A stretch of 64,000 nucleotides of DNA from Mycoplasmataceae bacterium. Lineage in GTDB: Bacteria > Bacillota_I > Bacilli_A > Mycoplasmatales > Mycoplasmoidaceae. The translations under genes and the position numbers were made by a program. The notes beneath the pieces were generated by a model. That model ran no database searches. It had not been told where the DNA came from and saw only the letters and a program-made list of their open reading frames with translations. How positions within the stretch are numbered: the first letter of the stretch is position 1; every line of letters begins with the position of its first letter. This document shows, one piece after another, positions 14,081-51,901 of this stretch. The stretch is taken from contig JAITFH010000060.1 of assembly GCA_031281465.1 (NCBI GenBank), positions 1 to 64,000 on the forward strand, in the 5' to 3' direction.

Positions 14081-14204
14081 CTTATATAAGTATATCTTTT
14101 AAATGATTAGACAATTTCTAGTAAAATTTATTCTTCTGTGCTAATAACACACAGAAAAAATATTTTTGAAATAGTTAACATTTAGATTTGAAGATATTAC
14201 AATC

Positions 14205-14588
14205 CTATCACAATGGTGAGTTAGGATTTATATCAATTAATCAAATGTTGGTAAGTGTAACAGATAATTCAGAATTATCATTATCACCAGCTCTATGTGT
14301 GATGCCAGAAACAGATAATTCAGAATTATCATCACCAACAACTCTAATTCCTTTTATTCCAGATGCAGCATCTAATTCAGAATCATCATTATCACCAGCT
14401 CTAAGCACGATAGTAGAAACGGATAATTCAGAATCATCGTTATCACTAACTCTGTGTGTAATAGAAGAAGTACTAGTTGTATAAGAAATTGAACTGTTGT
14501 TTACTACAGCAAAACTTACTCCAACTGATAGGACAGCAGCTCCACCTAATAATGTTGCTAATGTTAATTTTGTTTTTTTACTCATCAT
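14205..14588 (-). CDS. Small secreted repeat protein
   Basis: 127 residues. The N-terminal hydrophobic segment (KLTLATLLGGAAVLSVGVSFA) looks like a signal peptide or anchor. The rest consists of about four imperfect repeats of 18-22 residues built around GDNDDSELSVS, acidic and serine-rich. The ATG at 14597 directly abuts TATAAT (14598-14603) and cannot lie in the transcript; the next ATG, at 14588, is 9 bases from it and is the better start. The signal segment matches that of the neighbouring small protein at 14672-15031, so the two are probably diverged duplicates. The C-terminus ends NPNSPLW before TAG. Function unknown. Confidence 0.7.
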
Positions 14589-14671
14589 AATATTCATATT
14601 ATAACTATGAAGGTTAAACTTTCGGGGTTTTAGTCTTTTTAAAAAAAAGCAATTTTAATATTTTATAGTTG

Positions 14672-15031
14672 TTAACTTTCTTGATTAGGAGTATAGTATA
14701 CAGGAGGAGTGATGATTATAGTTGGAGGAACAAAAACACCATAAGGAAGATGTATGTTTTCATTATTTTTATCAAGACTAAGCATAACTTGAGCAGATTC
14801 TCCAACATAATCAATAGGATAGATTATTGATGAAATTGGAACCCAAGTAGCACCAGGTAATTTAGTTATGTCGTTTTCTAAGTCAAAATTTTGTTTGACT
14901 TCTGACAAATCATTTTTTGAAACTACAAGACTAGTATTGTTTTGGTTTAAAGAGAATGCCACTATGCTTGATAGAATAGCAGCTCCACTGAATAATGCTG
15001 CTAGGGTTAGTTTTAAGTTTTTATTTATCAT
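14672..15031 (-). CDS. Small secreted protein
   Basis: 119 residues. The hydrophobic N-terminus (KLTLAALFSGAAILSSIVAF) closely resembles that of the downstream small protein ending at 14205, while the mature part differs: no acidic repeats, but a proline-rich tail (FVPPTIIITPPVYYTPNQ). TATAAT (15041-15046) lies 9 bases before ATG, giving a nearly leaderless transcript. It is likely surface-exposed or secreted; no family is recognised. Confidence 0.68.
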   Translation of the reverse strand: MINKNLKLTLAALFSGAAILSSIVAFSLNQNNTSLVVSKNDLSEVKQNFDLENDITKLPGATWVPISSIIYPIDYVGESAQVMLSLDKNNENIHLPYGVFVPPTIIITPPVYYTPNQES

Positions 15032-45653: not shown

Positions 45654-46018
45654 GTGTAAGTGGTTAATCGCTACATTAATAATGTAGAGGAAAGTCCATG
45701 CTTGCCCAAGCTGTGATGCTTGTAAAATCTAGACCATTTTCAATTAGATGGGTGGTTTGACAACCAACGTGGAAGAAGATGCTAAGGTTTTTTACAAAAC
45801 TATGTGTTGGATTCATAACATACAACAGTGACGAATCGGATAGGAAACTTTCCGGGTGAAACGCGGTAAACACTAAGGAGGCAAGAAACTCAGTTTGAGT
45901 CGTAGTGACTCTGGTAAGAGGAACAATTATTGCAGAACCGAATGTAATAGTTGATAGCTTTAATCAGCTATAGATAAATGGTTAACTAAACAAAACATGG
46001 CTTATAGCTTACATGTCA
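45654..46018 (+). ncRNA. rnpB: RNase P RNA, type B
   Basis: The catalytic RNA that removes 5' leaders from pre-tRNA. GTAGAGGAAAGTCCATGCT near the 5' end is the universal conserved CRI core, and AGTGACGAATCGG, GGGTGAAACGCGGTAAAC and CTGGTAAGAGGAAC are further conserved elements of the Bacillus-type (B) molecule. TATAAT at 45644-45649 places the 5' end near 45654. A terminator hairpin follows directly (46019-46047). Ends are good to within a few bases. Confidence 0.93.
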
Positions 46019-47957: not shown

Positions 47958-48539
47958 ATGAAGAAAGCTTATTTATTATTCTCTCCTATTTTTTTATCTC
48001 CTCTGCTTTTTGCTTGTAGCAATAACGGTGGTTCAACACCATATAGTGATTTGACTTATGGAAAAGATTGAAAAATAACTAATAGTGCAGAAGCAAATGG
48101 AATAAAAAATATTTCTACTAAGTATTTGGATAAATTTTCTCGTACAAGTCTTAGTCTGGAAGAAGTTAACAAAGTTTTTACCGATAGAATAGAATCAACT
48201 AATCTTTTATATTGCCCGCTGTATGCAATGAATACTTTTTACTGAGAAACAGCTCATGGATGTGGTGAAAAAAATGAGCACATTACTTTTTCTGTAGATC
48301 CTGACGAAACACCTTCTGTTAAGGGTTCTATGGATGACTTCAGTGACCGTTATTTTACCGTTACCGGTTGAAGAATAGAAGAACTAGGAGGAGACGGCTA
48401 CACTTTAGACTTTAAATGAAGCTTTAACGAACAAAATAAAGTTACTTTCAATATTCTAACAAATCCAAATGCAGCTCCTGTTTACTCCTTCACATCTTGA
48501 ATGTTTTCTGATGTACAAAAAGCTTCTGATGATGAGTAA
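47958..48539 (+). CDS. Small lipoprotein
   Basis: 193 residues. The signal peptide (MKKAYLLFSPIFLSPLLFAC) has a lipobox ending at Cys-20, so it is probably lipid-anchored. The mature part is acidic and beta-rich with three further Cys and no recognised family. TATAAT lies 8 bases before ATG. Its last codons overlap the start of the exonuclease gene (ATGAGTAA), so that gene may be translated by coupling to this one. Confidence 0.75.
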
Positions 48540-49410
48540 TAAAAAAGGTGTAGTAGTTGATGGAAATTCTTTGATTTATCGATGCTACTATGGTTCTTTA
48601 AATCAACTCGATTATTATAAAAAACACGGTATAGAACCGGCTAACGCTATTAAACTTTTTTTAAATATCATTTTTAGAATTTTAGAAAATAAAAATTATG
48701 ATTATGCTTTAGTAGCATTTGATCACGCTAAGAAAAATATTCGTCATGAAGATTTTGAAGACTATAAAGCTGGAAGACAAAAAATGCCTGAAGATTTAGT
48801 AATACAATTACCAAAGATAGTTGAATATGTTAGCGCTTTTGGAATAAAAGCTATGTCCTTAGAAGGATTCGAAGCAGATGATTTAATTGGTTCGTTTGCT
48901 AACGTTATGAACAAAAACGATGTTGATGTAGAAATCTATTCAAGCGATAAAGATATGTTACAATTAGTGAATGATGCTACTTTAGTAAACTTATTTAAAG
49001 TAGGTGTTACTGATATTCAAACTATTAACAATACTAACTTTGAAGAAAACTACTTTGGTTTAAAACCTTCTCAAGTTGTTGACTTCAAAGGTATTAGTGG
49101 AGATTCTAGTGATAATTTAAAAGGTATCCCGGGTATTGGTCCTAAAACTGCAGCAGAACTATTAAAGAAATATGACACACTAGAAAATATTTTTGCTAAT
49201 GTAGAATCTTTACCTTTAAAACAACAAGAAAAGTTTAAAGAAAATATTGAACATGCTCTGCTTTGTAAAAAACTAGCTACTATTAATAAAACTATTTTTG
49301 ACAATAAAGAAGTAAATGAATTTTTAAAAAATCCTACTGATATGAAAACATTAGAAGAAATTATTAAAAAACACAATTTCAGTGGTTTTGACAAATATTT
49401 AAAAAATTAA
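48532..49410 (+). CDS. 5'-3' exonuclease (PolA N-terminal-like)
   Basis: 292 residues, a stand-alone FEN-type nuclease as known from other mollicutes that lack a full Pol I. The acidic metal site is visible in VVVDGNSLIYR, VAFDHAKKNIRH, EGFEADDLIGS and YSSDKDMLQLV. The helix-hairpin-helix DNA-binding part is GIPGIGPKTAAELLKKY. It should remove RNA primers and flaps. The ATG chosen (48532, or 48529 just before) lies within the end of the upstream lipoprotein gene. The stop overlaps the convergent dnaA stop by 4 bases. Confidence 0.92.
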   Translation: MSNKKGVVVDGNSLIYRCYYGSLNQLDYYKKHGIEPANAIKLFLNIIFRILENKNYDYALVAFDHAKKNIRHEDFEDYKAGRQKMPEDLVIQLPKIVEYVSAFGIKAMSLEGFEADDLIGSFANVMNKNDVDVEIYSSDKDMLQLVNDATLVNLFKVGVTDIQTINNTNFEENYFGLKPSQVVDFKGISGDSSDNLKGIPGIGPKTAAELLKKYDTLENIFANVESLPLKQQEKFKENIEHALLCKKLATINKTIFDNKEVNEFLKNPTDMKTLEEIIKKHNFSGFDKYLKN

Positions 49411-50465
49411 ATTTTGTTAATAAAATCAGTTAATTTCTTTTTTAAATCTTCATCAAGTTTTATCATTCTTTCTACTTTTTTAAAAGAATTACTGATTGTT
49501 GAATGATTACGAGAGCCTAAAATTTCACCAATTTCTTCGTATGATATTTGTAGTTTCTTTTTTAAAACATAAACACAAATATCTCTTACATAAGAAATGT
49601 TTTTTTTACGATTTTTAGAGATTACTTCTTTAGGTAGGGTGTTGTAGTATGTACATACATTTTCTACAACCACATTCGGATTGACATCGAAACGATAATT
49701 TTTTGGTACTGGCTCAGCGTTGTTAAATATTGAAGAGAGATATTCTAACGTTACAATATTTTCTCCAGCTGGATTATCTAATAACTTATAAATTATTTTC
49801 GTAATCATTCCACCAAGTCTACGAATATCTCCCAATGCTCGATTAGCTAAAAATTCTGTTGCTTCATTAGTTAACTGCACAGTGTCGTTAGCATCAACAA
49901 ATTTTTGTTTAGCAATTAATTTAAGTGTTTTAATATCTGGAGTTTTAATTTCACAATTTATTCCAGATGTAATTCTTGAAAAAACTCTTTTTTTAATTTT
50001 TTGTTCTAATGATGGAAGTGGTTCATCATAGGTTAAAACTATTTTTGATTTACTGTTAGAAAATAAGTTCTCAATAAAATTAAAAAATATTTCTTCAGCT
50101 TTTTCTTTTTTACAAAGATATTGGAAGTCATCAAAAAGAATTAAATCATAGTTTAGTAAATTGTTTTGAATTTCTAAAATTTCTAATTGATTGTCAATAA
50201 AAGAATAAAATTCACGAATGATATCTTCAGAAGAAACGAAGATCACTCTTTTGTTTGGAAATAATTCAGAAAATTTATTTCCTATCGCATGGAGTAAATG
50301 TGTTTTTCCTGTTCCCACATCTCCGTAAAAAGAAAGGATTTTAATTTTATCATCATTAACGAATAATTCAGAAAAACTAATTATCTCTTTATTAAAGTCT
50401 CCTTTAATATAGTTGGCAAAAGTGTAATTCTTATTAAGATTAGAATTCAAATCTTCGTTCAGCAC
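49407..50465 (-). CDS. dnaA: DnaA-family protein lacking domains I and II
   Basis: 352 residues against the usual 440 or so. The AAA+ core is complete: YTFANYI start of domain III, Walker A GDVGTGKTHLLHAIG (about residue 55) and Walker B LILFDDFQYL. Domain IV has the origin-binding signature GEILGSRNHSTI. The N-terminal oligomerisation/DnaB-loading domain and linker are missing, and no in-frame ATG upstream restores them. The start is GTG, 6 bases after TATAAT (50472-50477), so a leaderless message is expected. It may be the only initiator or a second paralog. No cluster of DnaA boxes is evident around it. Confidence 0.85.
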   Translation of the reverse strand: MLNEDLNSNLNKNYTFANYIKGDFNKEIISFSELFVNDDKIKILSFYGDVGTGKTHLLHAIGNKFSELFPNKRVIFVSSEDIIREFYSFIDNQLEILEIQNNLLNYDLILFDDFQYLCKKEKAEEIFFNFIENLFSNSKSKIVLTYDEPLPSLEQKIKKRVFSRITSGINCEIKTPDIKTLKLIAKQKFVDANDTVQLTNEATEFLANRALGDIRRLGGMITKIIYKLLDNPAGENIVTLEYLSSIFNNAEPVPKNYRFDVNPNVVVENVCTYYNTLPKEVISKNRKKNISYVRDICVYVLKKKLQISYEEIGEILGSRNHSTISNSFKKVERMIKLDEDLKKKLTDFINKI

Positions 50466-50764: not shown

Positions 50765-50841
50765 TGGTCGAGAAGACAGGATTTGAACCTGCGACCCCTT
50801 GGTCCCAAACCAAGTGCTCTACCAAGCTAAGCTACTTCTCG
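50765..50841 (-). tRNA. tRNA-Pro (TGG)
   Basis: Acceptor stem CGAGAAG/CTTCTCG with encoded ACCA; anticodon arm CTTGGTTTGGGACCAAG gives TGG. First of three minus-strand tRNAs downstream of the candidate ncRNA terminator. Confidence 0.94.
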
Positions 50842-50892
50842 TTTGTATTGGTTTATTAATACTTTAATATTATATATTTTAAAAGCAAACAA

Positions 50893-51235
50893 AAAAACCA
50901 CCCGGGGATCAGCCGAGTGGTTTCTTCGTTTTTGTTAGAATTTCAATTTCTCTAACCAACAAACATTTGCAACTATTCGTTAGATAAAGAAGGTAAAACT
51001 CCTTGCACTTATCGATAATCTTACGACATTTGTAATTAACTTAATCTTTGTTATCTTTTGGCAATCTCCGACTTTTCAATTTAGAAAAACCATTAACCGC
51101 TACTTCGAACACAAGTTGAATTAACTTTAAGGAATTGATAATTCATTTGATAACATACCAAATAAATTATTTCATTGCACTTATTGCTAATCGACTCCGT
51201 TGTTTTGCAAACGTTGCACAATTATCGAACTATGC
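50893..51235 (-). ncRNA. Candidate structured ncRNA, unassigned
   Basis: A 455-base gap between tRNA-Pro and the phosphatase gene has no credible reading frame. On the minus strand it has a -10-like TATAAC (51242-51247), about 340 bases rich in short inverted and near-direct repeats (GTGCAATGAA/GTGCAAGGAG; GTTTGCAAA/GTTGCAAATG), and then a very strong GC terminator hairpin with a U tail. No RNase P, tmRNA, T-box or clear 6S/SRP signature was found. Ends are approximate. Confidence 0.5.
50896..50922 (-). terminator. Strong intrinsic terminator
   Basis: In minus sense, AACCACTCGG pairs with CCGGGTGGTT (one G-U) around a 7-base loop, followed by TTTTTGTTTG. It is the most GC-rich hairpin in the window and lies 55 bases upstream of tRNA-Pro. 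Confidence 0.8.
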
Positions 51236-51296
51236 AATTATGTTATACTATCTTTTTTTAAGTTTTTTAAAACAATTTTTGTAATATATTAATATA

Positions 51297-51845
51297 TTAT
51301 TTTTTATAAATTATGCATTCAGCGTTCTTTGGACCTTTAAGCATAATGTGATTTTCTGGTAATCCGTTGAAGTATGCATCGAAGTGTCTACCGATTGCTC
51401 CGTGAGCAACAACTAATACTTCTTTACCTTCATAATTCTTTAATACGTATTCAATAAAATTAACTACACGTGCGTTCGTATCTTGAATTTTTTCCACACC
51501 TAAACCAAAATCATCGTTTAAATCATAGTTGTACATATTTTGTTTTGATACAGGCGAAGTTTCTCCTGCTGGAGTTCCTTCTAGTTTACCAAAATTTCTT
51601 TCTTTTATTCGTTCATCAACATTTGGTTTAAGATGGTGAAATTTATTGATATATTTAAATGTTTTTCTCGCTCTTTTTAATGGTGAAACAAAAGCTACAT
51701 CAAACTTTACATCTTTCAATTCTTCACCAGTTTTTTGAGCTTGTTTTTTACCTTCTTTTGTTAATTTAGCATTACTTGAACCTGCTCAAATATTTTTTAC
51801 ATTGTAGTCAGTTTGTCCGTGTCGAACATAGTAAATTTTTGTCAT
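51297..51845 (-). CDS. Histidine phosphatase (phosphoglycerate mutase family)
   Basis: 182 residues. The catalytic RHG motif is in IYYVRHGQTDYN, the second His in VLVVAHGAIGRHFD, and the acid in IKERNFGKLEG. These fit the histidine-phosphatase superfamily, which includes cofactor-dependent phosphoglycerate mutase and broad sugar-phosphate phosphatases; the substrate cannot be told. TATAAT/TATTAT lies 10 bases or fewer before the ATG. It diverges from the Nudix gene with only 56 bases between start codons. Confidence 0.87.
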
Positions 51846-51901
51846 GATATAATACATTATATGTGTCAAAGAATTTATATTCTTTTACAATGTGGTATAA
51901 A

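Follow-up and report, generated by a model that had tools for sequence, protein, structure and literature searches.

A putative stand-alone structured noncoding RNA gene in a draft Mollicutes genome and its probable counterpart in a congeneric genome

Introduction

The 6S RNA carries a rapidly evolving sequence on a long rod-like closing helix, and in the bacterial Y RNA, the partner of Ro60, a long closing helix is formed by pairing between the 5′ and 3′ ends. The tracrRNA of Cas9 systems is structured and has a terminator. Other noncoding RNA genes, namely ROOL, GOLLD and OLE, are large and highly folded, and their function is unknown or they are RNP or RNA-only (PMC12286853).

Here we have analysed an intergenic gap within a 64,000-nucleotide stretch of DNA, “the window”, from a draft Mollicutes genome (G000; 1.25 Mb, 72 contigs, code with TGA=Trp). 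An earlier note had singled out this gap as the likely site of an unassigned RNA ending in a strong terminator, and this is supported by the strand-specific fold, the terminator and the absence of an Rfam match. Bases ~51238 to 50888 (minus strand) would constitute a stand-alone gene for a noncoding RNA, with a promoter and an intrinsic terminator of its own; we infer its transcription from the sequence and the predicted fold.

Results

Locus and neighbourhood

On the minus strand, the gene order is histidine phosphatase, gap, tRNA-Pro, tRNA-Met, tRNA-Met and DnaA. The features at this locus, together with the RNase P RNA gene of the same window, are the following.

51297-51869, minus strand: histidine-phosphatase gene (Pfam assignment), its stop codon bordering the gap
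50842-51296, minus strand: intergenic gap of 455 bases between tRNA-Pro and the histidine-phosphatase stop
50765-50841, minus strand: tRNA-Pro, bordering the gap
45656-46009: RNase P RNA (RF00011, class B), identified by covariance match

The gap thus has the 455-base length reported earlier, and it was also rightly described as lacking a reading frame: no credible one exists in it under the TGA=Trp code. The longest frame, of 78 codons, lies on the opposite strand without a Pfam match, and a small protein encoded in the gap was rejected on these grounds. No reverse transcriptase, the marker of a retron, was detected among the Pfam-assigned flanking genes from YebC to MnmA, where a 193-aa frame at 47958-48539 is matchless. 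As a separate observation, the DnaA encoded at 49407-50465 of the window has just 352 aa and begins almost at its ATPase domain, compared with 420-480 aa in many congeners.

Comparison with known RNA families

The claim that the gap bears no known RNA signature was borne out by an Rfam covariance search, which gave no match at gathering scores and, with permissive filters, only unconvincing sub-threshold noise up to E=10. Among individual families, tmRNA gave no covariance match at the gap (the tmRNA of this genome lies at G000:C18:11013-11419), and SRP RNA (RF00169) was ruled out, its copy being found at G000:C34:142-229. RNase P RNA was likewise ruled out. Similar to the gap RNA, it is a stand-alone structured gene of ~350 nt with a -10 element and a strong terminator, yet there is no covariance similarity between them, and RNase P RNA shows BLAST-visible blocks across the genus whereas the gap RNA shows none.

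No match to 6S RNA appeared among those listed up to E=10, and the architectures differ, 6S RNA being an unbranched rod of ~190 nt with one central bubble whereas the gap RNA has a branched, three-way domain of 235 nt followed by a hairpin. For a T-box, a riboswitch or another Rfam cis leader only sub-threshold noise was obtained; moreover, the gap RNA is followed by its terminator and then by tRNAs with a separate TATAAT inside a 50-base spacer. The ends-paired closing helix is common to the gap RNA and Y RNA, but no TROVE/Ro60 protein was found in G000 at E<=0.001. A tracrRNA was also rejected: although both are structured and carry a terminator, nowhere else in G000 is there an exact match to the gap RNA as long as the CRISPR repeat, and the cas9 gene, the array and the anti-repeat-like stretch of this genome are located on contig C45, away from the gap RNA. 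That locus (L260:1-4796, G000:C45) is worth recording for itself; it encodes a Cas9 of ~1500 aa with REC lobe, HNH and bridge helix by Pfam, beside a CRISPR array at the contig end with a palindromic-ended repeat, GTTTGAGAGTGGTTCTAAAGCGAAACACTCTCAAAC, and an anti-repeat-like stretch near 200-230.

ROOL, GOLLD and OLE are highly folded like the gap RNA, but they are larger and conserved in sequence, and no Rfam family matched the gap (PMC12286853). The literature searched, of partial coverage, provided background on structured RNAs and no description of the gap RNA, which adds only weakly to the case for novelty made by the Rfam result. Most likely, the gap RNA matches no described RNA family and is new relative to Rfam.

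Promoter-like element, internal repeat and terminator

Three kinds of sequence element had been claimed for the gap, namely a -10-like element, internal repeats and the strongest terminator of the window, and all of them were recovered.

51242-51247, minus strand: -10-like element TATAAC, from the sequence and from comparison with the upstream regions of RNase P, tmRNA and tRNAs
51175-51192, minus strand: internal repeat GATTAKCRATAAGTGCAA, copy 1 (GATTAGCAATAAGTGCAA), reading 51192-51175 in the RNA sense
51003-51020, minus strand: internal repeat GATTAKCRATAAGTGCAA, copy 2 (GATTATCGATAAGTGCAA), within the 3′ strand of the closing helix P1
50888-50930, minus strand: intrinsic terminator, its hairpin extending into a U tract, ranked first in the window

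TATAAC matches the -10 consensus at 5/6 positions and a good -35 is absent, as is also the case for the RNase P RNA of G000. By itself the element is not significant, the promoter scan having given fewer sites than shuffled sequences. The predicted start at ~51236-51238, ~5 bases past TATAAC, is where the closing helix begins; thus the -10 element, the predicted start and the terminator frame the fold. The terminator reaches -17.9 kcal/mol and tops the window-wide ranking, followed by that of the RNase P RNA with -15.3 kcal/mol. A separate terminator scan missed it, probably because its stem runs into the U tract.

An 18-base exact copy of the GATTAKCRATAAGTGCAA-type repeat was observed, in the same sense as the RNA, at L216:2217-2234 (-) (G000:C1). 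It sits in a membrane-protein frame of a region resembling a conjugative element, with a chance expectation of ~0.1 (by hand).

Predicted fold

The predicted RNA consists of three parts: a 235-nt domain with a long closing helix, a three-way junction and two arms; a 66-nt hairpin; and, last, the terminator hairpin.

50888-51238, minus strand: predicted RNA gene of ~350 nt, from MFE and z scores
51193-51237, minus strand: closing helix P1 (32 bp in total, with internal loops), 5′ strand, mean pair probabilities 0.87-0.99
51119-51192, minus strand: arm 1, 74 nt, with an apical 15-bp hairpin and UGU loop (predicted)
51048-51114, minus strand: arm 2, 67 nt, with an apical 9-bp helix UGGUUUUUC/GAAAAGUCG beyond a 2x2 internal loop (predicted)
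51003-51046, minus strand: 3′ strand of P1 (predicted)
50937-51002, minus strand: second-domain hairpin, 66 nt, 26 bp, with the 8-nt loop GUUGCAAA, z -5.7 alone

The 353-nt strand has an MFE of -109.9 kcal/mol, compared with ~-67 kcal/mol in dinucleotide shuffles, corresponding to z = -8.2 and -8.8 in two runs (-7.5 without the terminator). Of the same-genome controls, RNase P RNA reached z -2.1 and tmRNA -3.7. The three-way junction is kept in 465/500 sampled structures, and the fold holds across the ensemble and from 30 to 42 degrees. When the whole window was scanned by regression, the gap RNA was one of the two best structured regions; the other peak, 14081-14430, was rejected as an RNA, being a repetitive short protein gene. 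In the region 14081-14690, short genes for proteins of secreted appearance carry a repeated DNDDSELSVS-type unit, and the fold signal there stems from these repeats.

Perhaps such a structure could lack any function and be what remains of a mobile element, or an inverted repeat arisen by chance, as long imperfect inverted repeats end the 235-nt domain and the sequence is single copy and missing from the syntenic sites of relatives. Yet folding is strand specific, the opposite strand reaching only z = -1.5, and 22 of the 109 pairs are G-U, so that a plain DNA inverted repeat is not what is seen; both features speak for selection on the RNA and against a simple DNA palindrome. With a promoter-like element and a terminator of its own, and no other copy in the genome, a relic is extremely improbable. 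Separately, a repeat, TTACGGAATTTTGACAAAAATGCAAAATTTCGTAATACAC, was noted in three copies at L251:3810-4292 (G000:C36), possibly as mobile-element ends.

The pairing pattern also bears on function. The strong terminator and stand-alone layout would suit a small regulatory RNA that base-pairs with mRNAs, and the 8-nt loop GUUGCAAA could act as its seed. However, hardly any stretch is unpaired: before the terminator ~70% of bases are paired and the longest unpaired run within the fold is 8 nt, which makes a protein-binding or scaffold RNA likelier than a seed-pairing antisense RNA. Furthermore, no long complementarity exists elsewhere, the longest exact shared stretch being the 18-nt copy in the sense direction described above. 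A base-pairing regulator is therefore very improbable, and we favour a rigid structural RNA.

Search for sequence relatives and synteny

BLAST with the gap RNA against 60 related genomes (the genus and sampled families) returned nothing beyond its own locus, where it is single copy in G000, and chance matches. The same held for a single-sequence covariance model (R1) over the overlapping sets of 36 genus, 320 order and 395 class genomes. Only chance matches were found in phages, in plasmids, with exact strings in viral contigs and with one degenerate string in genome contigs. As a control, BLAST detected the RNase P RNA of G000 in 29/35 other genus genomes; it thus works at this distance, and the gap RNA must change faster or be rarer.

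The tRNA-Pro-Met-Met cluster is ~90% identical across the genus, while its upstream flank varies among the genomes examined. When dnaA, the phosphatase gene and the tRNA cluster were used as synteny anchors, the gap RNA was not found beside them in the relatives examined. This bears on another explanation, namely that the RNA is the 3′ untranslated region of the histidine-phosphatase mRNA, which it would terminate and protect, or from which it would be cut out. The strand is shared, and the stretch from 51297 to 51248 yielded no separate terminator. Against this, the -10-like element puts the start at the closing helix, and a branched 235-nt domain far exceeds the needs of termination. In addition, the corresponding phosphatase genes of G008, G028, G002 and G011 are closely followed by other genes, and a different gene precedes the G028 counterpart described below. 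We consider a 3′ untranslated region quite improbable, and return to the RNA as a gene of its own.

Counterpart by fold in a congeneric genome

Intergenic DNA of the whole of G008 (~77% complete), the whole of G028 and 0.98 Mb of G000 including the window, 2.03 Mb in total, was folded in a strand-specific manner and then searched, blind to sequence, for local folds of three-way type that are closed by a long helix. Among the 42 folds obtained from these three congeneric genomes, the window RNA ranked first (z -6.1) and a G028 locus, L294:15442-15676 (-), second (z -4.2). These two alone combine a -10 element of 5-6/6 within <=7 nt upstream with a terminator of <=-14 kcal/mol downstream.

G028:C1 75394-75681: probable counterpart gene of G028, immediately preceded by TATAAT and immediately followed by a terminator

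Folding of relatives, which the earlier note had named as a check, gave by computation a locus that agrees with the window RNA in architecture and in dimensions from promoter to terminator. The spans are 235 nt in the window and 234 nt in G028, the arms 74/67 and 76/69 nt, and the apical helices 15/9 and 14/9 bp. In arm 2, the apical helix is UGGUUUUUC/GAAAAGUCG from position 149 in the window RNA and UAAUUUUUC/GAAAAAUUA from position 150 in that of G028, differing by one G-C to A-U change on both sides. When the G028 RNA was shuffled, the mountain distance to the window profile was as small in 2/1500 shuffles, and the arm sizes were matched in 0/1500. Structure-aware alignment placed 20 pairs in register, 8 of them changed on both sides, as seen in two sequences only. 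Both RNAs start with TATAAYANAATTGCA, absent elsewhere in 311 loci, a pattern that was read from the two afterwards and is no independent test. Sequence similarity is marginal, with 11/1000 shuffles scoring as high when the -10 region is included. The G028 RNA lacks the 66-nt second-domain hairpin, and its neighbours, a membrane-type protein beside dnaJ and a convergent atpB, are unlike those of the window.

It could be argued that the gap RNA is a single, lineage-specific structured RNA with a promoter and a terminator of its own, and that the G028 locus is an unrelated chance look-alike. No BLAST or covariance homologue appears in the 36 genus, 320 order and 395 class genomes, the model R1 gives the G028 locus only ~3 bits, and the positions differ. 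Nevertheless, span, both arms, apical helices and start sequence all match, which renders a chance resemblance unlikely. Homology of the two loci is likely rather than certain.

The fold scan found no counterpart in G008 (~77% complete), and its structured intergenics, viewed one by one, do not share the architecture. Two fold look-alikes inspected in loci of other congeners proved to be protein genes, named by eye as a frame similar to ribosomal protein L28 (L091) and a DNA glycosylase-like frame (L103). Independently, G008 was seen to hold two tandem short units at L180:11457-11678 (G008:C5), and a similar element in L204 near 6100 (G008:C12). Each L180 unit combines a G-rich core with a TATAAT-like element and a hairpin that precedes a T run, and may represent a small RNA or a terminator repeat family.

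Discussion

The explanation that we favour, with moderate confidence, is a stand-alone structured noncoding RNA of an undescribed, fast-evolving family in this Mollicutes genus, which would act in trans in a rigid RNP or scaffold role. The family would drift fast in sequence, with the gene at G028:C1 75394-75681 as its probable second member; the role as a rigid protein-binding or scaffold RNA is suggested by the geometry of the fold. Perhaps it is even a core RNA gene present in most species of the genus, holding a constant structural or RNP job and escaping BLAST and covariance models through fast drift of sequence and position, but this is a tentative and rather doubtful extension.

Mollicutes serve as minimal-cell models, for which the usual list of RNA genes comprises rRNA, tRNA, tmRNA, RNase P and SRP RNA. 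If true, a stable RNA that escapes sequence-based annotation would lengthen this list. It would also show that sequence-blind fold scans, combined with promoter and terminator context, find RNA genes missed by comparative pipelines that depend on alignment. Together with its probable, strongly diverged counterpart, the window RNA suggests that genomes as reduced as these hold RNA genes which escape sequence searches.
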